The notes under the pieces: model-generated
What the model was told of the DNA's origin: nothing
Database searches by the model: none
The model's input: the letters and a program-made list of their open reading frames with translations, nothing else
Shown here: piece after piece, positions 2,198 through 10,322 of the stretch
Layout: each line of letters begins with the position of its first letter
Position numbering within the stretch: the first letter of the stretch is position 1
Source: an uncultured Actinomyces sp.
GTDB lineage: Bacteria > Actinomycetota > Actinomycetes > Actinomycetales > Actinomycetaceae
NCBI GenBank assembly: GCA_945949035.1
Contig: CAMFDH010000031.1
Coordinates: 1-10,322, forward strand
Direction: 5' to 3'
DNA length: 10,322 nucleotides
Made by a program: the position numbers and the translations under genes

Positions 2198-2647
2198 ATG
2201 CAGATCACTGACATCCACAACCTGACCAGCCGCCTGGTCGAGGAGGACTGGGTCATCGACTTCGAAGGTGAGGACGACGAAGACGAAAAGAACGAGTTCT
2301 CCGACAGCCTCAAGGAGATCTACGAGAGGGCCGGGGAGGACGACGGAGCGCTCTACGAGTTCTTCACGTTCGCCACCAACGAGAAGGGCAGCACGGGGGC
2401 GGAGTACGAGTGGGACGCAAAGGAACTGAGGACCCAGTTCATTGAGACGTTCCGTGGTTCGGGCCGGGACATTTCCGAGGTGATCCAAAGGTATTTCTCT
2501 GGCTACGAGGACCGCATCCTGGACCCGCTGGCCTCCGACCGCCTGGTCGGGGCTTACTTCCAGTGGGAGGAATACGTTCGTGATCAGCGGCCGGACCTCC
2601 GGATTTACCAGCACGGCCCGATGATGTACCTCTTCAAGTCTGAATGA
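2198..2647 (+). CDS. Possible ArdA-like antirestriction protein (149 aa)
   Basis: The ATG at 2198 follows AAGGAG (2184-2189). The protein is strongly acidic: I count about 37 Asp/Glu against 16 Lys/Arg. Its C-terminal half follows the order typical of ArdA: an F-x-E-x-F-x-G segment (residues 81-87), an acidic helix (90-98), then YFQWEEYVRD (120-129), D-L-x-I (133-136) and a final MMYLF (142-146), comparable to the ArdA ending with Y-I-D-Y-E-x-F-x-R-D and Y-V-F. ArdA proteins mimic DNA and block type I restriction enzymes. The N-terminal half is less recognisable and shorter than in standard ArdA. The assignment is by eye; another acidic phage protein is possible. Confidence 0.8.
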   Translation: MQITDIHNLTSRLVEEDWVIDFEGEDDEDEKNEFSDSLKEIYERAGEDDGALYEFFTFATNEKGSTGAEYEWDAKELRTQFIETFRGSGRDISEVIQRYFSGYEDRILDPLASDRLVGAYFQWEEYVRDQRPDLRIYQHGPMMYLFKSE

Positions 2648-2668
2648 CCCGAGGGGAGGACTTCGGGG

Positions 2669-2690
2669 CTTTCCCGCCTCGGCGGGGAGG
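2669..2690 (+). other. Strong GC hairpin between 2647 and 2748
   Basis: CCCGCC (2673-2678) pairs with GGCGGG (2681-2686), extended outward by four more pairs that include two G-U. Only TT follows, so it is not a clear intrinsic terminator. CCGAGG (2649-2654), just after the stop codon, could instead pair with CCTCGG (2677-2682), giving a mutually exclusive fold. The rest of this 100-base gap shows nothing until the AAGGAGG of the next gene. Confidence 0.4.
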
Positions 2691-2747
2691 TTCCGTGGGT
2701 CTCTCGCCGGACAGAAACCCTGCACATACCCCCTTTAAGGAGGCTCC

Positions 2748-3080
2748 ATGAATAACCTTCCGTACGGCGGCGTCATCAACTGGAAGCTGCCGAAGAACAA
2801 GTCGGTACACGACCCCTCCGTGCACCACGGGTACCGCCACGTTGTGGCTTGGGGGGTAAACATGGGGAGCCACGCGTACTACATCGAAATGCAGTGCGCG
2901 GAGGCCAAGGCTCAGAACGCCCCCGTGGACGCCATTTTCCTCGGCGGTTCCGAGTGGGGGCCGCAGGAGGAGCGCTACTGGCGCACCTACGCCACCCTCA
3001 CTGAGTCTAATCCGGCTCTCGCCGAGGAGATCAACAAGTATGTCGAGGTGATGAAGGACATGGAGGAGCGAAAGGGATGA
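2748..3080 (+). CDS. Hypothetical protein (110 aa)
   Basis: The ATG at 2748 has a near-perfect ribosome site, AAGGAGG (2736-2742) with 5-base spacing, which suggests strong expression. The N-terminus is rich in His, Pro and aromatic residues (residues 5-34), followed by strand-helix segments around HAYYIEMQCAEAKAQNAPVDAIFL (42-65) and a charged C-terminal helix (residues 90-110). No motif I can name. It starts a run of four overlapping genes (2748-4133) and its last four bases, ATGA, are also the start of the next gene. Confidence 0.83.
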   Translation: MNNLPYGGVINWKLPKNKSVHDPSVHHGYRHVVAWGVNMGSHAYYIEMQCAEAKAQNAPVDAIFLGGSEWGPQEERYWRTYATLTESNPALAEEINKYVEVMKDMEERKG

Positions 3081-3418
3081 GGCTCCGCATCAACATCGAC
3101 AACGTCAAGAACAGTGATGGTCTGTTGGTGGAATGGGAAGGTGGCCTCAAAGAACTCATTCCCCTGACCGAGGCTCTAGCCAACGCCATGTGGCACACCG
3201 ACATCGGAAGGGTGACGGAAGACAACGTGGGCGAAGTCTTCCGCCGTATTCAGATCGCCGAGAAGGTTAACGGTGCCTACCTGTTTCACGGCTACAGCGA
3301 GCGGTGGTTCACCCGGGATGACGTGACCCGGCACATCGGGATGTCCGTCAACGTCCGCACCCTCTCCCCCACGGCATTCAACAAGAAGATCAAGGAAAGG
3401 AAGGTGCCCTCCGCATGA
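3077..3418 (+). CDS. Hypothetical protein (113 aa)
   Basis: It starts at 3077 in an ATGA overlap with the previous stop; GGAGGAG at 3062-3068 is the likely ribosome site. The N-terminus MRLRINIDNV looks like an edge beta strand. A helix follows (residues 24-40), then VTEDNVGEVFRRIQIAEKVN (46-65), which could be a helix-turn-helix-like pair, and a basic C-terminus (KKIKERKV). I do not recognise a family. Length and position match the next gene, but alignment by eye is too weak to call them paralogues. Confidence 0.82.
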   Translation: MRLRINIDNVKNSDGLLVEWEGGLKELIPLTEALANAMWHTDIGRVTEDNVGEVFRRIQIAEKVNGAYLFHGYSERWFTRDDVTRHIGMSVNVRTLSPTAFNKKIKERKVPSA

Positions 3419-3753
3419 AGTTCGAGATCACCGCCGACGTAGGCGACGTGATGGAGCGAATCATCGAGCCGCTGACCCAGGCACAGCAGAGCGTCCTCGC
3501 CCACGCCATGGGGGAGTCCAAGCGCTGGGATGTAGTGACGGTTGCCTCTGCGAACGAACGGACCGTCGTTTCTCTCATGCGGGGCCCGTCTCCGCTCATC
3601 CGGGAGAACCGAGTGCACCGCCGGGTGCTGACCCCTCTCGGAATGGACGTGGCCAAGTACCTCATCGCCACCAGGGATTTTCCGGCAATGGACCTGGACT
3701 CGATCATCCCGGACCTGACGCAGGGCAACGCCTCCGAGGAGGGAGAAGAGTGA
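3415..3753 (+). CDS. Hypothetical protein with winged-helix-like C-terminal pattern (112 aa)
   Basis: Starts in an ATGA overlap at 3415; AAGG at 3401-3404 is a weak ribosome site, so translation is probably coupled to the gene before. Residues 20-80 run as helix (LTQAQQSVLAHAM), helix (VASANERTVVSLMRG), a two-strand wing (SPLIRENRVHRRV) and LTPLGMDVAKYL. The ending L-T-P-L-G-x-x-V-A-x-x-L is characteristic of many small winged-helix DNA-binding proteins, so a regulatory or DNA-binding role is a reasonable inference. There is no ligand or dimerisation domain, and the tail is acidic. Other small folds remain possible. Confidence 0.82.
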   Translation: MKFEITADVGDVMERIIEPLTQAQQSVLAHAMGESKRWDVVTVASANERTVVSLMRGPSPLIRENRVHRRVLTPLGMDVAKYLIATRDFPAMDLDSIIPDLTQGNASEEGEE

Positions 3754-4133
3754 GCAGCAACGCCTACCAGCTGATTGTCCACCTGGCCGAAGCGCCGCCC
3801 GGGGAAAGCGACCTCAACGAGGCCCGAAGGGTCGGGAACGCGATCAAGGAAGGGCTGCGGGACCGGTTCGTGGAGATCGACCGGGTCGACATCCGGGAGG
3901 TCCCTCCGCCCCCGCCGAGCAAGGCGGACATCCCTGTCGGCGTCCGGGTGCTGGTCACCAGAACATGGCGGGATGAGCCCAATATCTACACGGCGAAGGT
4001 CGCGGGTTACGACCTGTTCCGGTCGAAGTATCGACTGGACCGGGAACTCAGCCCGGGGCACTACGCCACTGGCGGCCACACCTGGGCGTTCGTCGGCGAG
4101 GTCGAGCGGCACCCGGACAACAAGGCGGACTGA
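3750..4133 (+). CDS. Two-part hypothetical protein with polyproline linker (127 aa)
   Basis: A GTG start at 3750 lies in a GTGA overlap with the preceding stop and follows GAGGAGGGAG (3736-3745). Residues 5-50 look like strand-helix-strand (YQLIVHLAEA, then NEARRVGNAIKEGLRDRF, then IDRVDIREV). A run of five prolines (52-56) acts as a linker. Residues 62-119 resemble an SH3-like barrel (VGVRVLVTRTW, YTAKVAGYDLF, SKYRLDREL, TWAFVGEVER). No catalytic residues are apparent. The fold reading is inference. This is the last gene before the terminator at 4147-4171. Confidence 0.82.
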   Translation: MSSNAYQLIVHLAEAPPGESDLNEARRVGNAIKEGLRDRFVEIDRVDIREVPPPPPSKADIPVGVRVLVTRTWRDEPNIYTAKVAGYDLFRSKYRLDRELSPGHYATGGHTWAFVGEVERHPDNKAD

Positions 4134-4146
4134 GGGAGCACGGTGG

Positions 4147-4171
4147 CTGGCGCCCTTCGGGGCGTCGGTTT
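4147..4171 (+). terminator. UUCG-loop intrinsic terminator after the 3750-4133 gene
   Basis: CTGGCGCCC (4147-4155), loop TTCG (4156-4159), GGGCGTCGG (4160-4168) gives a 9-bp stem with two G-U pairs, followed by TTT. The T-run is short, as is common in GC-rich phages. It sits 13 bases after the stop at 4133 and closes the four-gene block. Confidence 0.65.
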
Positions 4172-4213
4172 GCCGCGCATTCTCAGACCGGGATGCGGGA
4201 GAAGGAGAAAAAC

Positions 4214-4507
4214 GTGACGATCAAGATTCCGAAGCACGTCTTCGAGGGGGCCGCCCATGAGGCGGATGTCCACGACGCCATCACCTGGGACGCAACCGAC
4301 ATGTTCGAGTCGGTGTACTCGAAGCACTGCCCGGCCATCCGGGGTAGTGAGACCGACTTCGCCAAGTTCTACGGCGTGCTGATCCTGCGCTGGTACGAGG
4401 AGGAAGATGCCGACGAAGCCATGGTCCTCGACCTCGGTGAACGCATCGTCTCCCGCGCCTCGGGGCGGCACACCCTCTACGGCTTCGCCGGTCTGGAACT
4501 GACATGA
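4214..4507 (+). CDS. Acidic hypothetical protein (97 aa)
   Basis: I choose the GTG at 4214 because AAGGAG (4202-4207) sits 6 bases upstream. An in-frame ATG at 4193 would place that ribosome site inside the gene and has none of its own. The product begins MTIKIPKHVFEGAA, has a helix-rich middle, a short strand GVLILRWYEEED (residues 54-65) and a C-terminal helix ending in the hydrophobic LYGFAGLEL. No family recognised. It follows the terminator at 4147-4171, so it should begin a new unit; no clear promoter is visible in the 42 bases between. Confidence 0.78.
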   Translation: MTIKIPKHVFEGAAHEADVHDAITWDATDMFESVYSKHCPAIRGSETDFAKFYGVLILRWYEEEDADEAMVLDLGERIVSRASGRHTLYGFAGLELT

Positions 4508-4809
4508 CCCGCATCGAGACGGACTATGTGCCCGGGGACAAACCCATTCCGATCGGGGAGATCGTCCTCTACGCCCCGGATGACTCCCCGATTGCCGGTC
4601 GGTACAAGGTGACGGACTGGGACAACCCTCACGAGCATCCGATGCCTCCGCCGGGGCTCTCTCTGGAGGAGGTGTACCCGGACGGGGCGGCGTACGCGCT
4701 GTGGCCAGAGGGTGTGCCTCGTAAGTTCGGGTTCCGGCATCTGTCGGTGTCCTGGGTCCGTAGGACATCGCTCCGACGGCCCGCATCAGACCGAAAGGAA
4801 GAACGATGA
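4504..4809 (+). CDS. Hypothetical protein with SH3-like pattern (101 aa)
   Basis: Starts in an ATGA overlap at 4504 with almost no ribosome site, so it probably depends on coupling to the upstream gene. Residues 10-87 suggest a small barrel: PGDKPIPIGEIVLYAPD, then GRYKVTDWDN, a proline-rich loop (44-50), GAAYALWPEG and FRHLSVSWVRR. Phage proteins of this G-D-x-V-x-Y / Y-x-V / W-P-x-G type are common and unassigned. The last 20 residues are basic and probably disordered. Function unknown. Confidence 0.8.
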   Translation: MTRIETDYVPGDKPIPIGEIVLYAPDDSPIAGRYKVTDWDNPHEHPMPPPGLSLEEVYPDGAAYALWPEGVPRKFGFRHLSVSWVRRTSLRRPASDRKEER

Positions 4810-4865
4810 CGCAGATCAGCGAGCCGGTACCGGCTGCTAGCAGTGAGCGGGAGGTTGAGGAGTGA
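4806..4865 (+). CDS. 19-residue micro-ORF between two coupled genes
   Basis: ATG at 4806 (ATGA overlap) follows AAAGGAAG at 4794-4801 and reads 19 codons to TGA 4863-4865, itself overlapping the GTG of the next gene. The predicted peptide is MTQISEPVPAASSEREVEE. In favour: a good ribosome site and neat overlaps at both ends. Against: tiny size, and the DNA contains two adjoining palindromes (4822-4835 and 4834-4843), so the stretch may be regulatory rather than coding. It could be a leader peptide that carries ribosomes to the 4862 start. Confidence 0.45.
   Translation: MTQISEPVPAASSEREVEE
4822..4843. repeat. Two adjoining palindromes inside the micro-ORF
   Basis: AGCCGGTACCGGCT (4822-4835) is a perfect 14-nt palindrome and CTGCTAGCAG (4834-4843) a perfect 10-nt one sharing two bases with it. 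They sit 19-40 bases upstream of the GTG at 4862. Possible operator or hairpins affecting translation of that gene. Confidence 0.4.
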
Positions 4866-5101
4866 GCGGGCTCGACGGGTTTCCGCTTCCCCCGACCTCC
4901 GGTCACAACCCGCAGGGACGGCACATCGTGCCGCACATCCGGGAGTGGCGCCGAACGGCCGGTTCCGACCGGGCCGTTCGAGGCTCCGAGGTGGAGCGAA
5001 ACCAGCGCCAGCTGAGTCAGTTCTACGCACATCTGGAGGAGCACCGTCGGCGGGGAGAGCCCGTCGAGGTGGCCAGACAACCCGACGAAGAGGAGAAGTA
5101 G
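4862..5101 (+). CDS. Small charged hypothetical protein (79 aa)
   Basis: A GTG at 4862 in a GTGA overlap, with GGGAGG (4849-4854) 7 bases upstream. The N-terminus is Gly/Pro-rich (MSGLDGFPLPPTSGHNPQG) and probably unstructured. The rest is a long Arg- and Glu-rich helix (residues 25-70: REWRR, SEVERNQRQLSQFYAHLEEHRRR), ending with an acidic tail DEEEK. Could be a small nucleic-acid or protein-binding helix; no family recognised. The final codons contain the AGGAG used by the next gene. Confidence 0.75.
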   Translation: MSGLDGFPLPPTSGHNPQGRHIVPHIREWRRTAGSDRAVRGSEVERNQRQLSQFYAHLEEHRRRGEPVEVARQPDEEEK

Positions 5102-5103
5102 AC

Positions 5104-5316
5104 ATGGCGGACAAGTTCTCGGTGTGGGCGCGCAGCCGGGACCCCGAGTGGACGACTCAGAACCGGTGCAGTGATGTGCTGGTCCTGTTCAGCGTCGACA
5201 AGGGCAAGGCCGAAGGGCTGGTGAACCGGCTCCAGCTCCTCTATCGGGACAGGACGCTGGAGATCCCCCCGGCCAACATCCCACCCGTGCCCAACTCGGT
5301 GGGTTCGGGTGCCTGA
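5104..5316 (+). CDS. Small hypothetical protein (70 aa)
   Basis: The ATG at 5104 is preceded by AGGAGAAG (5092-5099). A longer reading of the frame exists upstream but would overlap the whole preceding gene without a ribosome site. The product has a central strand SDVLVLFSVD (residues 23-32) and a helix GKAEGLVNRLQLLYRD (34-49), followed by a Pro-rich C-terminus (LEIPPANIPPVPNS). No family recognised. It overlaps the following gene by 8 bases. Confidence 0.75.
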   Translation: MADKFSVWARSRDPEWTTQNRCSDVLVLFSVDKGKAEGLVNRLQLLYRDRTLEIPPANIPPVPNSVGSGA

Positions 5317-5515
5317 CCGGCAGGAAGCTCCGTACCCCTCCATCCGGGCCGCCACTGCGGCCCGCCTCGGGATGACTGAGGCGCAGGTGGATGAGGTGCT
5401 GGATGTCTACCTGGAGGAGTCCCGGAAGGACAAAGAGCGACGCCGGGAGTCCCTGAAGGACAACCACGTCTACCAGCAGTGGCTGGCGGCGAAACAACGG
5501 AACGAGACGGCCTGA
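5309..5515 (+). CDS. Small helical hypothetical protein (68 aa)
   Basis: A GTG start at 5309 overlaps the preceding gene by 8 bases; the ribosome site is weak (GGTGGG region), so coupling is likely. ATG 5372 is a shorter alternative. Residues 13-32 (RAATAARLGMTEAQVDEVLD) have the spacing of a helix-turn-helix, followed by a long charged helix (SRKDKERRRESLKD) and QQWLAAKQRN. A DNA-binding role is possible but not demonstrated. It is the last gene before a strong terminator, hence the end of the 4214-5515 unit. Confidence 0.75.
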   Translation: MPDRQEAPYPSIRAATAARLGMTEAQVDEVLDVYLEESRKDKERRRESLKDNHVYQQWLAAKQRNETA

Positions 5516-5533
5516 CGGCCGGAACTCCACATT

Positions 5534-5562
5534 GGGAGGCACCCTTCGGGGCGCCTCCTTTT
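5534..5562 (+). terminator. Strong UUCG-loop intrinsic terminator
   Basis: GGGAGGCACCC (5534-5544), loop TTCG, then GGGCGCCTCCT (5549-5559) gives a stem of ten pairs with one A-C mismatch and one G-U at the base, followed directly by TTT. This is the best terminator in the window, 18 bases after the stop at 5515. It separates the lipoprotein gene from everything upstream. Confidence 0.85.
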
Positions 5563-5608
5563 GTGTGGTTCCGGAGTGGGAGCACGACCGAGAGACAAGG
5601 AGCTGGAT

Positions 5609-6040
5609 ATGAGCAAGGCACTGGGCGGTATTGCGGCGGCGCTGGCGCTGATCCTGGGAGCGTGCGGCGGGTCGGCGTCGGCGGACGACCGGGCGCCGGA
5701 GGCGGCGTCGGCCACCTCGACGGGCGGCGGGTACGATCCGGAGATCTACACCGAGGACCCCTGGCAGCTGGGCTACTGCATCAGCGTGGAGAACGACTCG
5801 GCCGAGGTGCACGAGGTCGAGGGGGGATACGGCACCGGTTCCTACGAGGACCTGCTGGCCGACCGCCCCTGCACGCTGGACCTGGCCTTCGGGTACGGGA
5901 AGCTCCTGAAGAAGCACAATCTGGTCGGGAGCGAGGACTACACCAAGATCTGGAAGGTTCTGTCGGACAAGGAGCCGATGTTCCGGGATAAGGTGGTTCA
6001 GTTCTCGGACGGTTACGCCGAGAACTTCGTCAACCGGTAG
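5609..6040 (+). CDS. Predicted lipoprotein (143 aa)
   Basis: The ATG at 5609 follows CAAGGAG (5596-5602). Residues 1-19 form a lipoprotein signal: MSK, a hydrophobic core GGIAAALALIL and the lipobox L-G-A-C with Cys19 as the lipid-bearing residue. A Gly/Ser/Ala/Asp-rich spacer (20-45) follows, then a soluble acidic domain with just two cysteines, Cys57 and Cys88, which could form a disulfide outside the membrane. Phage-encoded lipoproteins in other systems (Ltp of the temperate Streptococcus phage TP-J34) block superinfection, so an exclusion role is a sensible guess. The domain itself is not recognised. Isolation behind a terminator gives it a moron-like position, although no promoter is evident in the 46 bases between. 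Confidence 0.88.
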   Translation: MSKALGGIAAALALILGACGGSASADDRAPEAASATSTGGGYDPEIYTEDPWQLGYCISVENDSAEVHEVEGGYGTGSYEDLLADRPCTLDLAFGYGKLLKKHNLVGSEDYTKIWKVLSDKEPMFRDKVVQFSDGYAENFVNR

Positions 6041-6123
6041 AAGAGGGCAAGTCGGGAGGAGAAAGAAGTCCCGTCGTCAGACTCTGAAGCAAAAGATCAT
6101 CAGGCACACCTAGGGAGTCCATC

Positions 6124-6393
6124 ATGAACAAGGTTTTGAAGAACGACGAACAGCGGAACCAGGCGTCCGAAGTCCTGGACATGATCTGGGACCTGGTCAG
6201 GTACATCGACGATCTGGAAGAGGAGGAGCTTCAGCAAGGGCTCGCACCCGTCGGTGCGGTGATCGACAGTCAGCTGCCGAAGATGCTGTCCCTCATCGGC
6301 GTCCCCGAAGAGAAGCAGCGGGACGTTCTCGACATGATGGGTGACGGTTCCCCGGCCGAAGAGGCTATTCACGAGTGCATGATGGAGAACTGA
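6124..6393 (+). CDS. Acidic helical protein, diverged copy of the next gene (89 aa)
   Basis: The ATG at 6124 follows AGGGAG (6112-6117). The protein is mostly helical and acidic (DDLEEEELQQ at residues 29-38). LDMIWDL (18-24) and LIGVPE (57-62), followed by a D-rich helix and A-x-x-x-I near the end, match ALDMVDDL and LLGVPE with the same C-terminal pattern in the 6399 gene. I therefore read the two as tandem paralogues. No known domain. The 83-base gap upstream (6041-6123) contains no hairpin or convincing promoter that I can see. Confidence 0.82.
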   Translation: MNKVLKNDEQRNQASEVLDMIWDLVRYIDDLEEEELQQGLAPVGAVIDSQLPKMLSLIGVPEEKQRDVLDMMGDGSPAEEAIHECMMEN

Positions 6394-6398
6394 TCACG

Positions 6399-6728
6399 AT
6401 GGCGAAGCTGACTGCCAAGTCGAGCCTGAAGACCCCTCGGGACCGCCAGTGCGCCCTGGACATGGTCGACGACCTCGGCAAGCTGATGCACCAGCTCAGC
6501 CGGGACAACGTGCTGGCGCTCGTCGCCGCTTACACCCGGAGCCACGATCAGGGAGAGCGGTGTCCGCACCCCAACTATCCGTACGCCAACCTGCACTCGG
6601 CCCTCACCGGGACGCTCCGCCTGCTCGGAGTGCCGGAGGGGAACTTGATGGACGACGCCATCACGGCAGTGGTTGAGGAGCGGGAACCGGCGGTCGATGT
6701 CATCAAGGCGTACACCGCCGCTCAGTAA
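6399..6728 (+). CDS. Helical protein, diverged copy of the previous gene (109 aa)
   Basis: I choose ATG 6399 because GGAGAA (6384-6389) precedes it; an in-frame ATG at 6375 lies inside the previous gene and lacks a ribosome site. The product is longer than its neighbour by a basic N-terminus (MAKLTAKSSLKTPRDR) and an insert with Cys55, His57 and two Tyr (CPHPNYPYANLH, residues 55-66). LLGVPE at 75-80 is the shared landmark. Function unknown. A palindrome shared with position 1130 follows its stop codon. Confidence 0.8.
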   Translation: MAKLTAKSSLKTPRDRQCALDMVDDLGKLMHQLSRDNVLALVAAYTRSHDQGERCPHPNYPYANLHSALTGTLRLLGVPEGNLMDDAITAVVEEREPAVDVIKAYTAAQ

Positions 6729-6736
6729 GGGCTACG

Positions 6737-6750
6737 ATGGCCTAGGCCAT
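6737..6750. promoter_or_regulatory. 14-nt palindrome, second copy of the 1130-1143 core
   Basis: ATGGCCTAGGCCAT is identical to the centre of the 26-nt palindrome at 1124-1149. Here it sits 16 bases before the ATG at 6767 and just upstream of its ribosome site. TACGAT at 6733-6738 overlaps its left edge and could serve as a -10 element, but no matching -35 is clear. Exact recurrence of a symmetric site in front of two genes points to a shared operator. Confidence 0.5.
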
Positions 6751-6766
6751 GGAGAGGGGAAGCTGC

Positions 6767-7048
6767 ATGAGGTGCATCTCTGCACGAGTGAGCAGGAACG
6801 GGAGCGGAGATCTCGTCGTAGACGAGGCCAGCGTCCAACAGGGGGCCGATCCCCACATCCAGGAGGGGTCCGGCTCCCAGCCCGGAGACATGACGGGGGT
6901 GTGGGAGTACTCGGAGCGGCTGTCCACTCAGGATGCCCGCTCCTGGGTCGGCATGACCCTCCCTGACTACCTGTACGTGTGCACCTCCTGGGGCGAGCAC
7001 GTGCGAGTCGCCGACCACTACCGGAACCAGATCGAGGAGACCGACTGA
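6767..7048 (+). CDS. Small hypothetical protein (93 aa)
   Basis: ATG 6767 is preferred because AGGGGA (6755-6760) lies 6 bases upstream; the in-frame ATG at 6749 falls inside the palindrome and has no ribosome site. The first half is Gly/Ser/Asp-rich and looks loosely folded. The second half (WEYSERLSTQDARSW, then LPDYLYVCTSWGEHVRVADHY) is richer in aromatic residues. No family recognised. Its stop overlaps the start of the methyltransferase-like gene by one base (TGATG), so the two are likely translated together. Confidence 0.75.
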   Translation: MRCISARVSRNGSGDLVVDEASVQQGADPHIQEGSGSQPGDMTGVWEYSERLSTQDARSWVGMTLPDYLYVCTSWGEHVRVADHYRNQIEETD

Positions 7049-7806
7049 TGGGGTACACCGACATCTACGACCGTATGGCGGTCAACATCCCGGAGGGTGA
7101 AGTGCGCGGGATGAAGGTCGATCGCTTCGAAGTGATCAGCCTTAAGGACTGGAAGCCCGAGCACGAGAAGCGCAAGGACGCGATCTCACCGCTCACTCTG
7201 GCCCGCGCGTCCCTCCAGGGGCGGGCCCCGAAGCCTGGGTGGTACACCCGCCTCTCCGAGGGGGGAGTTGTGTGGATGTCCGACACCACCGCAGAGCGGG
7301 AGGACCACGCTGCTCCGGTCTTCGCCATGAGCACCACCAAGGCGGAGCGTGTGGTGATCGGCGGCCTCGGCATCGGGATGGTTCTCTCCGCAGCGTTGAG
7401 CTTCGATCATGTCAAGCACGTCGATGTGATCGAGTCCGATGACCGGGTCATCGAGCTGGTCGGACCGCACTACCTGAAGGACCCCCGCGTCACCATCCAC
7501 CACGCGGATGCCTTCGAGCAGATGGACCGTTGGCCCGCCGACGCCCGCTGGGACGTTGGCTGGATGGACATCTGGCCGGACATCTGCGTGGACAACCTGG
7601 AGGAGATGAAGCGGTTCACCGACTTCTACGGTCCCCGGTGCGGTGAGTTCGGCAACTGGTCCGAGGACATCTGCAAGCGGCGGGCGTGGGACAACCGTGA
7701 CTGGGAGGAGGACTATCTCGAATTCCTCACCGAGGAGGATCAGCAGCGCTTCGAGGATGAGGACGAGGAAGACGAGCTGTGGGAAGACGAGGAGGACGAC
7801 GAATGA
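7048..7806 (+). CDS. SAM-dependent methyltransferase / spermidine-synthase-fold protein with acidic tail (252 aa)
   Basis: The ATG at 7048 follows GAGGAGA (7034-7040). The Rossmann-type core is clear: the glycine-rich motif VVIGGLGIGM (residues 102-111), a second strand ending in an acid VDVIES (Glu129, expected to hold the ligand ribose), HHADAFE (Asp154) and WDVGWMDIWPDI (168-179, Asp173). The D-I-W after strand four recalls spermidine-synthase-like proteins. Substrate is unknown: DNA, protein, nucleotide or polyamine are all possible, and a typical N6/C5 DNA-methylase motif (DPPY or PC) is absent. Residues 229-252 are nearly all Asp/Glu, an unusual tail. The largest gene of the window, coupled to its neighbours on both sides. 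Confidence 0.9.
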   Translation: MGYTDIYDRMAVNIPEGEVRGMKVDRFEVISLKDWKPEHEKRKDAISPLTLARASLQGRAPKPGWYTRLSEGGVVWMSDTTAEREDHAAPVFAMSTTKAERVVIGGLGIGMVLSAALSFDHVKHVDVIESDDRVIELVGPHYLKDPRVTIHHADAFEQMDRWPADARWDVGWMDIWPDICVDNLEEMKRFTDFYGPRCGEFGNWSEDICKRRAWDNRDWEEDYLEFLTEEDQQRFEDEDEEDELWEDEEDDE

Positions 7807-8294
7807 TCACGCTGGTGGAGTTCATTCGACTCTTCAAAGAAGGCAAGCCGCTTCCCCAGGACTCCCATCCCCGTCTGCCGGACGCGGACGTCGCCCTCCT
7901 TCAGTGGGAAGCGGGGGACCTGTTCGCCGACTTCGCAACTGCCTTGGAGGAGGACAGCCTCGACTCTACGGCCGACAAGATCAGCGGCCGTGTTGACATG
8001 TTGGTGAACCAGTACGGCTGGTACAACGCCGCCGCAGTGCTGGCTCTCACATGGTCCCCGAACTACGAAGGCTTCGATCTGGCCAACTTCCGGAAGTCGG
8101 AAGATGTGGACGTCGACCAGCTGGCGAAGGTCTTCGTCGTCACGTCCACCGTGCCGGAGGAGCCCGCCAAGTGGAGCTTCGCCCTGGCCATGCTCGCCAC
8201 CTCGTCCCGGGAGGTGGCCTCGCACTTCATCGAGTACCTGTTGTACGTGTCCGTCGCAAGCATCCTCGCCAGAACCCAGAAGGAGGCAACATGA
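7803..8294 (+). CDS. Helical hypothetical protein (163 aa)
   Basis: ATG 7803 lies in an ATGA overlap and GAGGAGG (7790-7796), supplied by the acid-tail codons of the upstream gene, is the ribosome site. The product is largely alpha-helical: MITLVEFIRLFKEG, a helix around WEAGDLFADFATALEED, then NAAAVLALTWS, KWSFALAMLATSS and FIEYLLYVSVASILA. The last two are moderately hydrophobic, but short and interrupted, so I do not call membrane segments. No family recognised. The tight overlap with the methyltransferase-like gene suggests a related role or matched stoichiometry. Confidence 0.82.
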   Translation: MITLVEFIRLFKEGKPLPQDSHPRLPDADVALLQWEAGDLFADFATALEEDSLDSTADKISGRVDMLVNQYGWYNAAAVLALTWSPNYEGFDLANFRKSEDVDVDQLAKVFVVTSTVPEEPAKWSFALAMLATSSREVASHFIEYLLYVSVASILARTQKEAT

Positions 8295-8758
8295 GCAACC
8301 CGCAGTACTCCACCCAGGAGTGGAAGGACTCCTACGATCAGGCGGAGATCGCGATGTTCCGGGAGGCGGACCCGGATCTCGTGGACTGGCCGCTGGCTCA
8401 GTTCATGTGCAAGACAGTGGACACAAGCGATGTGGTGGCCAAGGACCCACTCATCATGCAGGCGATCATCAACATGGTCGACGTGGAAGGGTTCGACAGC
8501 CTCGACCCGGAGACCTTCACCACCATCCTGGGAACAGCCAACGGCACTACCGAGGACGACTTCCAGGGCCTTGCCCAGGAACACATTCGGGAGACGTACG
8601 GCCCGGAGGAGGAGGGCCGTCCGGACGTGAACCAGTTTGTCAGCGAAGACGACTGGGAGTTGTGGTACCGAAACCACGCGATGGGTCCGACCGAAGCCTA
8701 CGGAGACATCATCGGGGGCGGCACGCTCTACTGGTTCGACAGGAAGGACATCTGGTGA
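8291..8758 (+). CDS. Acidic hypothetical protein (155 aa)
   Basis: ATG 8291 is in an ATGA overlap with AAGGAGG (8280-8286) just upstream. The protein is strongly acidic (EEEGRPD, SEDDWELW, EDDFQG) with a helix-rich N-terminal two thirds and a C-terminal segment of aromatic and Gly residues (WYRNHAMGPTEAYGDIIGGGTLYWF, broken across residues 125-149). One Cys (40). I do not recognise a domain. It continues the coupled block begun at 6767 and ends one base into the start of the next gene. Confidence 0.83.
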   Translation: MSNPQYSTQEWKDSYDQAEIAMFREADPDLVDWPLAQFMCKTVDTSDVVAKDPLIMQAIINMVDVEGFDSLDPETFTTILGTANGTTEDDFQGLAQEHIRETYGPEEEGRPDVNQFVSEDDWELWYRNHAMGPTEAYGDIIGGGTLYWFDRKDIW

Positions 8759-8961
8759 TGAGGGCAGGAATGGATCAGACAACGGCGCGCCGCCGGGCCA
8801 AGGAACTGGGGGGCATCGCTGTCTCCGCCCGCCCGGAAAGCACAGGGCGGTGGAATCTCGGCGGCTGGCCCACCGAGAAGGACGTCCGGATCGTGGTTTC
8901 TCTGGACCGGAAGCAAGGGCTCGACGACGGACCGGCCAGCCCGTTGAAGGGCGAGTCATAG
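8758..8961 (+). CDS. Small basic hypothetical protein (67 aa)
   Basis: Start is ambiguous: ATG 8758 overlaps the preceding stop (TGATG), but the in-frame GTG 8755 has better spacing from AGGAAGGA (8741-8748), and ATG 8770 is a further option. The product is basic at the N-terminus (TTARRRAKELGG) with a strand VRIVVSLDR (residues 43-51), unlike its acidic neighbours. No family recognised. It ends the coupled block; a 94-base gap follows. Confidence 0.72.
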   Translation: MRAGMDQTTARRRAKELGGIAVSARPESTGRWNLGGWPTEKDVRIVVSLDRKQGLDDGPASPLKGES

Positions 8962-8998
8962 GAAAGCCCTACAAAGAGGGTTGCAAATCCATTTACCA

Positions 8999-9020
8999 GG
9001 TCGCCGTCTGAGACGGCACC
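8999..9020 (+). other. Hairpin in the gap before the 9056 gene
   Basis: GCCGTC (9003-9008) pairs with GACGGC (9012-9017) around a 3-base loop, extended by GGT/ACC with one bulged C. There is no T-run, so a simple intrinsic terminator is unlikely. The remainder of 8962-9055 contains no gene I can support; a 12-codon ATG-to-TGA reading at 9021-9059 ends in an ATGA overlap with the next gene but lacks a ribosome site. Confidence 0.45.
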
Positions 9021-9055
9021 ATGCTCAATGAGCTGGACGAAAAGGAGAAGGAAAA

Positions 9056-9403
9056 ATGAGCGGATTCCCGATGATCGGAACCGACATGAAGACACCCGTT
9101 CACTTCGCTCCCCCGCCGCAGGGTGAGCCGGTGTTCGTGTTCATCCAGGACGACAGTTCGGACGGCCAGGAGTCCCGAGTGGTCACCACCGCCACCCTGG
9201 ACTGGGTGCGCGAACAGTTCCATGACTACCTCCAGGGTGACCGGGAGACCGACGTGGACTACGAGACGGCGTATGTCCTCGTCGAGGGGGCTAAGAAGCT
9301 TCAGTGGTGTCACCTCGGAACCGGCCCCGGCCGGGGCGCTGGTGACGGGCCGCGCCTGATGGTCTACGACGACACCGGCGTGATCGCCATGTACGACCTC
9401 TAG
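9056..9403 (+). CDS. Acidic hypothetical protein (115 aa)
   Basis: ATG 9056 is preceded by an unusually purine-rich stretch containing AAAAGGAGAAGGAAAA (9040-9055), an excellent ribosome site. Strand VFVFIQDD (residues 26-33), helix LDWVREQFHDYLQGD (48-62), strand YETAYVLVEGAKK (69-81), a Gly-rich loop GTGPGRGAGDGP (88-99) and strands LMVYDDTGVIAMYDL suggest a compact alpha/beta fold. The Gly-rich loop is not a Walker motif because it lacks G-K-S/T. No family recognised. Confidence 0.82.
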   Translation: MSGFPMIGTDMKTPVHFAPPPQGEPVFVFIQDDSSDGQESRVVTTATLDWVREQFHDYLQGDRETDVDYETAYVLVEGAKKLQWCHLGTGPGRGAGDGPRLMVYDDTGVIAMYDL

Positions 9404-9411
9404 GGGCGAGC

Positions 9412-9609
9412 ATGAAATGCACAGGACCGTCCGAGCGGCAGTATGACCTGGATGATCTGGGAGATCTGGATTGCGACGTCACGTTCACGATGCACTCCCA
9501 CTCACCCGATGAGGAAGAGGTCATAGTTCCCATGCGAGACATTCTCTTCCTCGCCGACCTCCATTTTCAGGCGGTGCGGAAAATCGAGCGGGGTGGGCCC
9601 GCGTCCTGA
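9412..9609 (+). CDS. Small acidic hypothetical protein (65 aa)
   Basis: ATG 9412 follows a modest ribosome site (AGGGGCGAG, 9402-9410), 8 bases after the upstream stop. The N-terminal half is very acidic (YDLDDLGDLDCDV), the middle has His27 and His29 (FTMHSHSPDEEE) and the end is a helix (ILFLADLHFQAVRKIE). Two cysteines, 3 and 21. Unknown function. It is followed by a 126-base gap with strong secondary structure. Confidence 0.75.
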   Translation: MKCTGPSERQYDLDDLGDLDCDVTFTMHSHSPDEEEVIVPMRDILFLADLHFQAVRKIERGGPAS

Positions 9610-9663
9610 AGATCTTGACTCTGGAGGACGAATGACCCGCTTCTGATGGCGTGCAGTGCTCCG

Positions 9664-9689
9664 CTGACAGCCCCGAGGGGTGCTGTCAG
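9664..9689 (+). terminator. Long hairpin after the 9412-9609 gene
   Basis: CTGACAGC (9664-9671) pairs fully with GCTGTCAG (9682-9689); inside it CCC pairs with GGG around a GAG loop, with one bulged T, for 11 pairs in all. No T-run follows, so it may terminate inefficiently, act as a processing or stability element, or form part of the leader of the next gene, whose own hairpin begins 12 bases later. Confidence 0.5.
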
Positions 9690-9700
9690 TGGGGTGCTGG

Positions 9701-9729
9701 ATGCTCTCAGCGAGAGAGCACGGAAAGGA
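9701..9729 (+). promoter_or_regulatory. Conserved hairpin plus ribosome-site leader, copy 1
   Basis: TGCTCTC (9702-9708), loop AGCGA, GAGAGCA (9714-9720) forms a perfect 7-bp stem, followed by CGGAAAGGA, which includes the ribosome site for ATG 9736. The whole block recurs at 10181-10211 with 26 of 31 bases identical. Comparable in concept to the start-associated sequences with upstream inverted repeats in cluster K mycobacteriophages, though the sequence differs. Confidence 0.65.
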
Positions 9730-9735
9730 TGAAAA

Positions 9736-10125
9736 ATGTACCGAAAGAACACTATGAACCACCTCTACCGGCTGTTCGACGAAGAGTTGAAGCTTTGCGA
9801 GTGCGGGACCCCGGAGGCCGCATACGGACTGGTCCATCACTTGTTGGAGTTGGCTCCCTTCTACGAGCACCCGGAGAAGGTGACCGAGGCCGCCGGTGGT
9901 GAGGGGTCAGCGCACCTTGTGCTGTCGATGCTGACCAATGCTGACCTGATCGAGCACGGAGGCGCCATTGGGGGGTCGTGGATCACCCCCAAGGGGGCCT
10001 GGTTCCGCGACGTCCTACGGAACATCGACAACTGGGAGGACTTCGCGGACAACCGTCCAGGAATTCCGGATCTCCACGGCGGGAAGAAGTGCACGGACGC
10101 CTGCTGGAATGCTCCCACGGCTTGA
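9736..10125 (+). CDS. Hypothetical protein with winged-helix-like pattern (129 aa)
   Basis: ATG 9736 lies 6 bases after AAAGGA (9724-9729). Residues 8-45 are helical with LCECG at 20-24. Residues 57-95 (SAHLVLSMLTNADLIEHGG, then GGSWITPKGAWFRDVL) have the helix-wing order of winged-helix proteins, with I-T-P-K-G in the place of the usual L-T-x-x-G. The C-terminus adds two more cysteines (KKCTDACW, 119 and 123), which with Cys21 and Cys23 could form a CxC/CxxxC metal site if they meet in the fold. Role in DNA binding is an inference. It carries the conserved hairpin leader. Confidence 0.82.
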   Translation: MYRKNTMNHLYRLFDEELKLCECGTPEAAYGLVHHLLELAPFYEHPEKVTEAAGGEGSAHLVLSMLTNADLIEHGGAIGGSWITPKGAWFRDVLRNIDNWEDFADNRPGIPDLHGGKKCTDACWNAPTA

Positions 10126-10140
10126 AAAGAATTTGAAGGC

Positions 10141-10154
10141 GTGCGGTGCCGCAC
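10141..10154 (+). other. 14-nt palindrome / hairpin after the 9736-10125 gene
   Basis: GTGCGGTGCCGCAC is a perfect palindrome 15 bases after the stop codon. As RNA it would form a tight GC hairpin with a 2-4 base loop and no T-run. It occupies the same place relative to the following leader as the hairpin at 9664-9689 does for copy 1. Confidence 0.4.
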
Positions 10155-10180
10155 CGGTGGAGTCATATCGATGCGGGGCC

Positions 10181-10211
10181 GGATGTTCTCAAGAAGAGAG
10201 CACAGAAAGGA
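10181..10211 (+). promoter_or_regulatory. Conserved hairpin plus ribosome-site leader, copy 2
   Basis: TGTTCTC (10184-10190), loop AAGAA, GAGAGCA (10196-10202) keeps the 7-bp stem of copy 1: the one stem change, C to T, becomes a G-U pair rather than a mismatch. ACAGAAAGGA follows. Differences from copy 1 fall mostly in the loop, which suggests the RNA structure is what is conserved. Confidence 0.65.
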
Positions 10212-10217
10212 AACATG

Positions 10218-10298
10218 ATGAGTGACCTGAAGCTGAACAGCGACGACATCCGCAAGCTCCAGAAGTCGATCGACCTGACCCAGGACCGCGGACAGTAA
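10218..10298 (+). CDS. 26-residue microprotein behind the conserved leader
   Basis: Two adjacent ATGs at 10215 and 10218 are available; 10218 is preferred because AAAGGA (10206-10211) then lies 6 bases upstream. The peptide starts MSDLKLNSDDIRKLQKS and ends in DLTQDRGQ, a short amphipathic charged helix, before TAA 10296-10298. Its leader nearly matches that of the 9736 gene, which supports real translation. The DNA turns abruptly AT-rich directly after the stop, so the reading frame may have been shortened by a junction or assembly end at that point. Confidence 0.55.
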   Translation: MSDLKLNSDDIRKLQKSIDLTQDRGQ

Positions 10299-10322
10299 CT
10301 CTATTATTGTTAATTAAGAATG
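10299..10322. other. Abruptly AT-rich end of the window
   Basis: Only about 5 of the last 24 bases are G or C, in a window that is otherwise about 60 % GC. It contains TTAATTAA (10310-10317). It could be a promoter region for a following gene, the edge of a horizontally acquired piece, or an assembly or vector end. The sequence is too short to decide. Confidence 0.4.

Follow-up and report, generated by a model that had tools for sequence, protein, structure and literature searches.

We describe a folded leader that fronts two, and probably three, small genes in a window of 10,322 nucleotides. The window is the whole stretch of DNA that was analysed and makes up an entire contig (C31) of a bin that totals 1,688,676 bases in 303 contigs. 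Each leader is predicted to form a long imperfect hairpin that ends shortly before the start codon, and the right arm of this hairpin can instead pair with a strand next to the ribosome site. The three leaders appear from their sequences to be paralogous, structured RNAs, most likely with a role in processing and translation start, and they would probably control the cutting or the reading of the downstream messages. We tentatively favour one account, with a probability of roughly 0.36, in which the leaders are RNase III-type processing sites and the strand freed by cutting folds anew next to the ribosome site.

Repeated leaders before small genes

According to our own gene calls, the window contains around 29 tightly packed genes, all on one strand. 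Two blocks near its end, spaced 482 bases apart, are identical at 26 of 31 bases (sequence reading and repeat search). The first-pass annotation had reported this match, which is real, with the first copy two bases off, at 9701–9731 rather than 9699–9729; the second spans 10181–10211. It had also described a 7-bp stem, a 5-base loop and GAAAGGA in each block, which we read directly in both copies, and a change from C–G to U–G, which is indeed the sole difference between the two stems (the loop differs at three of five bases). A weaker third form, placed by the annotation at 1151–1180, is present at 1154–1183 with two of its seven stem pairs broken. The gap between hairpin and GAAAGG is two bases in all three copies. 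The features are as follows.

1111–1162, + strand: copy 3, long hairpin, 22 bp, −34.3 kcal/mol; basal helix CGA/UCG, U·C, GGCGC/GUGCU
1155–1182, + strand: copy 3, degraded short hairpin that retains 5 of 7 pairs, plus GAAAGGG of the gene at 1191–1610
1191–1610, + strand: gene downstream of copy 3
4130–4186, + strand: possible fourth leader of similar layout and different sequence, a 24-bp hairpin over the upstream stop codon, preceding the gene at 4214
9644–9709, + strand: copy 1, long imperfect hairpin, 29 bp, −48.6 kcal/mol; basal helix UGA/UCA, 1 × 1 U·C, GGCGU/AUGCU
9702–9720, + strand: copy 1, short hairpin, 7 bp, 5-base loop (arms 9702–9708 and 9714–9720)
9723–9729, + strand: GAAAGGA, Shine–Dalgarno sequence of the gene at 9736–10125
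9736–10125, + strand: gene downstream of copy 1, 129 amino acids, function unknown; with relatives in metagenomes, on Streptomyces plasmids and on IMG/VR contigs
10133–10192, + strand: copy 2, long imperfect hairpin, 22–23 bp, −31.8 kcal/mol; basal helix as in copy 1, mismatch A·C
10184–10202, + strand: copy 2, short hairpin, 7 bp including one U–G, 5-base loop (arms 10184–10190 and 10196–10202)
10205–10211, + strand: GAAAGGA, Shine–Dalgarno sequence of the gene at 10215–10298
10215–10298, + strand: gene downstream of copy 2, 27 amino acids, our own call from the reading frame

GAAAGGA is presumably the expected complement of the 16S tail, so its seven shared bases need no special reason. A pattern that joins hairpin and ribosome site (TGYTCTCN5GAGAGCANNGAAAGG, at most three mismatches) matched three times in the window and in none of 200 shuffles; across the 1,688,676-base bin it matched three times, always on this contig, and the reversed control gave no match. 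The hairpin pattern without the ribosome site had six matches on both strands (three places), a number equalled in 16 of 200 shuffles. Searches of Rfam found no family, and the single match up to an E value of 1 was mir-9457 at 5517–5575, which scored 23.3 bits, below the gathering score of 90. The possible new translation-control element suggested by the first-pass annotation is therefore upheld as a repeated, start-associated feature that exceeds chance and matches no Rfam family, but not through its short hairpin, which is not visibly kept.

We rejected the short hairpin as a conserved structure: across the three copies, one pair changes on one side, two are broken and none changes on both sides. 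Pieces of 57–60 nt around it also fold less unusually (z = −2.24, −0.68 and −0.12) than the complete leaders. A 7-bp hairpin directly precedes 4 distinct places among 37 that resemble Shine–Dalgarno sequences, three of them leaders and one within a gene (2241), and 7 of 12 leaders have no short hairpin of at least 5 bp before the ribosome site. We also rejected a reading of the conserved block as a coding start (ATG CTC TCA, ATG TTC TCA and GTG CTC TCG), as the differences, judged by eye, have no third-position bias.

The intergenic gaps at 9610–9735 and 10126–10214 align over 9644–9729 and 10134–10211, their last 86 and 78 nt. The score of 41 was the best of 66 gap pairs; 300 shuffles averaged 15.1 and did not exceed 25 (p of about 1 × 10−7, extrapolated from a Gumbel fit to these shuffles). 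A cassette larger than a ribosome site was therefore duplicated or shared, and since the intergenic block aligns as a whole, duplication is not excluded by the unrelatedness of the downstream proteins, as the first-pass annotation had argued it was.

The gaps upstream of the three leader genes measure 105, 126 and 89 nt, and the long hairpins predicted on their coding strand end 22–28 nt upstream of the start codon. All three share a base of three pairs, a 1 × 1 mismatch (U·C, A·C and U·C) and five pairs; 24 of 24 cells of this basal helix pair in register, and only 8–13 of 24 do so when the register is slid by 1–4. The left blocks of copies 1 and 2 differ at one base, the unpaired one. The apex of the copy 3 hairpin is a 26-bp perfect palindrome (1124–1149). 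Complete leaders folded with z scores of −5.42, −3.65 and −3.48, and for each of them none of 200 shuffles was as good; with other bounds the scores were −4.72, −4.04 and −3.37, with 0, 0 and 1 of 200 shuffles as good.

Stems of at least 22 bp occur in five of nine gaps of at least 60 nt, ending 22–37 nt before the start, compared with 3 of 216 coding windows; when these gaps were shuffled singly, the observed stem length was equalled in 0 to 8 of 300 draws each. Within 110 nt before the start, stems of at least 20 bp precede 5 of 24 window open reading frames (ORFs) of at least 75 amino acids versus 3 of 72 on seven other contigs of the bin (individually 1/14, 0/15, 1/9, 1/6, 0/10, 0/6 and 0/12); long pre-start stems are therefore not general in the bin. 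In the possible fourth leader, the right arm of the long hairpin joins a 7-bp hairpin at 4176–4197, three bases before the ribosome site, and the long form is favoured by around 7 kcal/mol.

Pair-keeping changes, competing folds and candidate roles

Copies 1 and 2 were aligned without structural information before pairs were counted. Despite 14 substitutions in paired columns, 21 of the 23 pairs are kept (13 unchanged, 4 changed on both sides and 4 with a compatible one-sided change; 2 are broken). Random substitution preserved as many pairs in 1.2 × 10−4 of draws, and a null with the observed transition bias (11 of 14 are transitions) did so in 5.5 × 10−3; slid registers gave two-sided changes in none of six. 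Relative to copies 1 and 2, copy 3 has two basal pairs changed on both sides from U–A to C–G in the structural register, in which alone the second of these changes appears. MAFFT misplaced the third leader in one alignment and left a gap in the basal helix of copy 3 in another; one two-sided change is visible in the three-row basal helix because the gap hides the second. Reshuffling of the alignment, a weak test with so few rows, was as good in 39 of 500 cases for the two-row alignment and in 178 of 500 for the three-row basal helix. The covariation comes from two or three copies, all on one contig.

The right arm of the long hairpin, RUGYUCUCR, doubles as the left arm of the short one. The two folds are mutually exclusive because they have this strand in common. 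Ensemble energies with each fold forced were −55.72 versus −54.21 kcal/mol in copy 1 and −41.70 versus −40.93 kcal/mol in copy 2 (gaps of around 1.5 and 0.8 kcal/mol), and in copy 3 the short fold costs around 4.5 kcal/mol. The Shine–Dalgarno sequence lies outside both hairpins in the leaders; in copy 2 it need not be open, because the prediction pairs several of its bases with the gene start.

Three observations bear on where these hairpins lie in the transcript. A promoter scan found no sigma-70-like promoter in the window. The eight terminator-like sites with a T run are all on the other strand (shuffle mean, 5.8), in a scan that is blind to stems with mismatches such as the one at around 5534–5559 followed by TTTTGTGT. 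The 22–28 nt between stem and start are too short for an ordinary promoter. The hairpins are thus most likely inside longer messages. Their predicted stems are intergenic and 22–29 bp long, a size that would suit RNase III, whose sites are transcribed stems of about two helical turns. In the account that we favour, the long hairpin would sit within a longer message and be cut as an RNase III-type site. A cut in the long stem would free the right arm, which could then pair with GAGAGCA; the small hairpin so formed would lie close to the new 5′ end and shield the message while the ribosome site stays outside it. A single conserved strand would in this way be used twice, before and after cutting.

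Next in rank comes a two-state translational switch without cutting, which we consider possible, if doubtful. The long hairpin would keep the YUCUC strand off the start region until its base is opened by a protein, a ligand or a ribosome on the upstream ORF; the strand would then pair with GAGAGCA beside the Shine–Dalgarno sequence and alter initiation. The exclusive folds of copies 1 and 2 are close in energy, and the differently built leader before the gene at 4214 has the same overlap of arms. Upstream stop codons lie at or near the left arms. In copy 1, the TGA of the left arm is the stop of a four-codon ORF with a Shine–Dalgarno sequence (MTRF, 9632–9646); in copy 2, the arm starts 7 nt past the upstream stop codon, and in the leader before 4214 it contains the stop. 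However, the long fold is strongly favoured in copy 3 and in that fourth leader, we saw no ORF that ends on the left arm of copy 3, and neither fold hides the ribosome site. The four-codon ORF itself may be a leader peptide or a gene remnant.

A broader proposal, about as doubtful as the switch, is that the leaders form a new phage leader RNA family in which one strand alternates between the long hairpin and the hairpin on the Shine–Dalgarno side, so that scattered small genes would be co-switched by upstream translation, cutting or a phage protein.

Long stems suit terminators too, which is a caveat for the processing account. The hairpins could be terminators or attenuators of the upstream genes, copied along with the next ribosome site, with read-through feeding the downstream genes. 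Their stems are long, G+C-rich, intergenic and strand-specific and lie shortly past stop codons; hairpin clusters as terminators are the topic of PMC8355165, as judged from the accessible part of that paper. We nevertheless consider this explanation unlikely: by sequence reading, no T run follows any of the three long stems, the terminator-like sites are all on the other strand at a number in line with shuffles, and the conservation that extends from the right arm through the Shine–Dalgarno sequence would be left unexplained.

A DNA dyad is expected to fold almost equally well on both strands. For the leaders, the coding strand gave −48.6 versus −28.4 kcal/mol for the other strand in copy 1, −31.8 versus −18.4 in copy 2 and −34.3 versus −29.8 in copy 3. 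The other strand folds much worse in copies 1 and 2 because their long stems contain six G–U pairs each. This asymmetry speaks for an RNA rather than a DNA element, as far as predicted energies go. Two further intergenic hairpins in the window differ in this respect: a 22-bp one at 5519–5574, with a T-rich stretch after its inner stem, is symmetric (−39.1 versus −39.3 kcal/mol) and was set apart from the leaders, and a 24-bp one at 2649–2710 is strand-specific (−40.0 versus −22.1 kcal/mol).

A promoter or operator copied before several genes, with the inverted repeat as a protein site, seems improbable. It would have a parallel in the extended start-associated sequences (ESAS) of cluster K mycobacteriophages, which combine SigA-like promoters with inverted repeats (PMC11373665, accessible part); the left block TCTGATGGCG can be read as a −10 box, and the apex palindrome of copy 3 recurs in other contigs of the bin. 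Against it, the window has no sigma-70-like promoter and, by eye, no −35 box at the usual distance, copies 1 and 2 fold strand-specifically through their G–U pairs, and the arms diverge yet keep RNA pairing. Part of copy 3 may still be a DNA site, because its short hairpin is degraded and its apex palindrome is found elsewhere.

A recent, functionless duplication of intergenic DNA, with the shared ribosome site as the best part of the match, would suit two neighbouring copies that align over most of their length, but it is very improbable: with 14 substitutions, drift would seldom leave 21 of 23 pairs intact, and the basal helix recurs in a third copy at a distance of 8.5 kb.

Relatives and the likely parent

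A covariance model built from the three short copies, as the first-pass annotation had proposed, recovered its own three seeds in the bin and nothing further; among 27 sequence sources, its next matches had E values of 1.2 (locus L033) and 4.3 (window position 3376). A two-arm pattern (GAWGGCGN35-62RTGYTCTCR) gave five matches in the bin and none in the control. Three of these are the leaders described here, and the others are on contigs C16 and C126, with that on C126 falling below 7 pairs under a looser descriptor; over the collected loci, this descriptor gave many chance matches among the matches listed. Pattern scans of IMG/VR gave no match, and that of GTDB contigs gave one, in Gluconobacter, which is about the chance expectation.

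Comparison with 50,697 phage records by megablast returned no match. Distant blastn searches found one weak match for the window end, within a gene, and five records for 2400–10322, each of them matching within the methyltransferase gene or at its end. The proteins that start at 1191 and 1632 had no tblastn match in phages. Relatives of the 129-amino-acid protein came from twelve IMG/VR loci, two Streptomyces plasmids and one Microbacterium phage, and in these 15 relatives we saw no such leader by eye in the 140 nt before the match, with start codons unsure in several. Single-sequence scans of IMG/VR with the proteins at 9736 and 9056 found none; with the methyltransferase, three loci were found, in which the leader was searched for with the covariance model and the descriptor. 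Family searches yielded 42 stretches in IMG/VR (1191 family) and 210 in GTDB contigs (9736 family), with no relatives in either. Kin of the bin amounted to 1 of 99 and 1 of 394 genomes, both times the bin itself; by DNA, 2 of 213 genomes matched, of which one was again the bin and the other shared 81 bases at 5632–5712. The leader was absent from all relatives with readable DNA. An absence of further copies, which the first-pass annotation had held to count against the element, is half borne out: none lies elsewhere in the bin, but the sequence covers no more than 10.3 kb of the phage.

The methyltransferase is the sole member of a named PHROGs family among 18 proteins scanned (phrog_15480, E = 4 × 10−31), and its best phage relatives are in Microbacterium phages; in the same scan, the protein at 1632–2135 matched a family of unknown function (phrog_12268, E = 1.4 × 10−14). 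Metagenome relatives of the two larger downstream proteins are 93% and 88% identical. The clusters that hold relatives of the proteins at 9736 and 1191 (P0001 and P0011) reach contigs of 149,585 and 177,009 bases. The window is therefore probably a small part of a large parent phage, of around 150 kb or more. The leaders probably belong to an uncultured large phage of an actinobacterium. The 129-amino-acid protein has conserved cysteines and histidines, and its relatives are on Streptomyces contigs, plasmids and viral contigs.

At 1130–1143 and 6737–6750, the palindrome ATGGCCTAGGCCAT stands before genes. It recurs exactly on two other contigs of the bin (C53 at 3026 and C81 at 3073) and with one mismatch at six more places (C8, C81, C84, C86 twice and C126); with up to two mismatches, the bin has 27 forward matches versus 6 in the reversed control. 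The palindrome looks like a phage operator, and contigs that carry it may belong to the same phage or its kin. On C53 (L042), it lies just before an ORF at 3061–4089 that by eye resembles an ATP-grasp protein, and another ORF, at 4201–6279, resembles a TROVE/Ro60-type protein, again by eye.

Comparison with known systems

We found no description of the leader element in the literature, which does not prove that none exists. The RNase III sites of phage T7 are long, imperfect stems that lie between genes, a short way upstream of the following ribosome site. The leaders, as predicted from sequence alone, resemble these in stem type and place; they differ in the second hairpin that overlaps the right arm and in the host group.

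The remaining comparisons draw on the accessible parts of the papers cited. Microbacterium phages of clusters EC, EF, EG and EI have start-associated repeats, with several copies per genome shortly before starts, and cluster EF has GGGAAAGGACCCC at the ribosome site (PMC7302621). Unlike the leaders, these are short fixed motifs or 18-bp dyads, and in that part of PMC7302621 no long stem with a competing fold is described. Cluster O mycobacteriophages have 17-bp dyads of a fixed symmetric DNA motif, around one-third of them within genes (PMC4351075). They share with the leaders the spread of short inverted repeats over an actinophage genome and are nearer to the palindrome ATGGCCTAGGCCAT.

The first-pass annotation likened the element to the start-associated sequences (SAS) and ESAS of cluster K mycobacteriophages. 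The likeness holds in position: in both systems a conserved ribosome-site block has an inverted repeat just upstream, and the genes that follow have long gaps before them and lie in an actinophage's non-structural region. The leaders have the SAS placement at the ribosome site, with gaps of more than 50 bp, and the ESAS arrangement of an imperfect inverted repeat just upstream, here 22–28 nt before the start. The sequence is different: SAS have a 13-bp motif, GGGATAGGAGCCC or GGGAAAGGACCCC, and by reading the ribosome site here is GAGAGCACRGAAAGGA. SAS number ten or more per genome (SAS and ESAS counts in cluster K are given in PMC12699233); here three leaders are present in 10.3 kb of a probably far larger phage genome, with none elsewhere in the bin. 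The leader stems of 22–29 bp exceed the 17-bp repeats of ESAS, and the SigA-like −35 and −10 boxes of ESAS were not found, with no promoter-like site in the window. The likeness gives way at RNA pairing. ESAS arms have a fixed half-site sequence in common. In the accessible part of PMC3203893, the ESAS inverted repeats are judged not to support RNA pairing or mRNA hairpins, whereas departures between the leader arms keep pairing in the long stem (4 two-sided and 4 compatible one-sided changes, with 2 pairs broken). Start-associated repeats are known in several actinophage clusters, and the inverted repeats of cluster K look like DNA sites. A repeat that is apparently kept as RNA pairing with two competing folds offers a concrete, testable mechanism, which would bear on the way in which large phages control what their many small genes produce.
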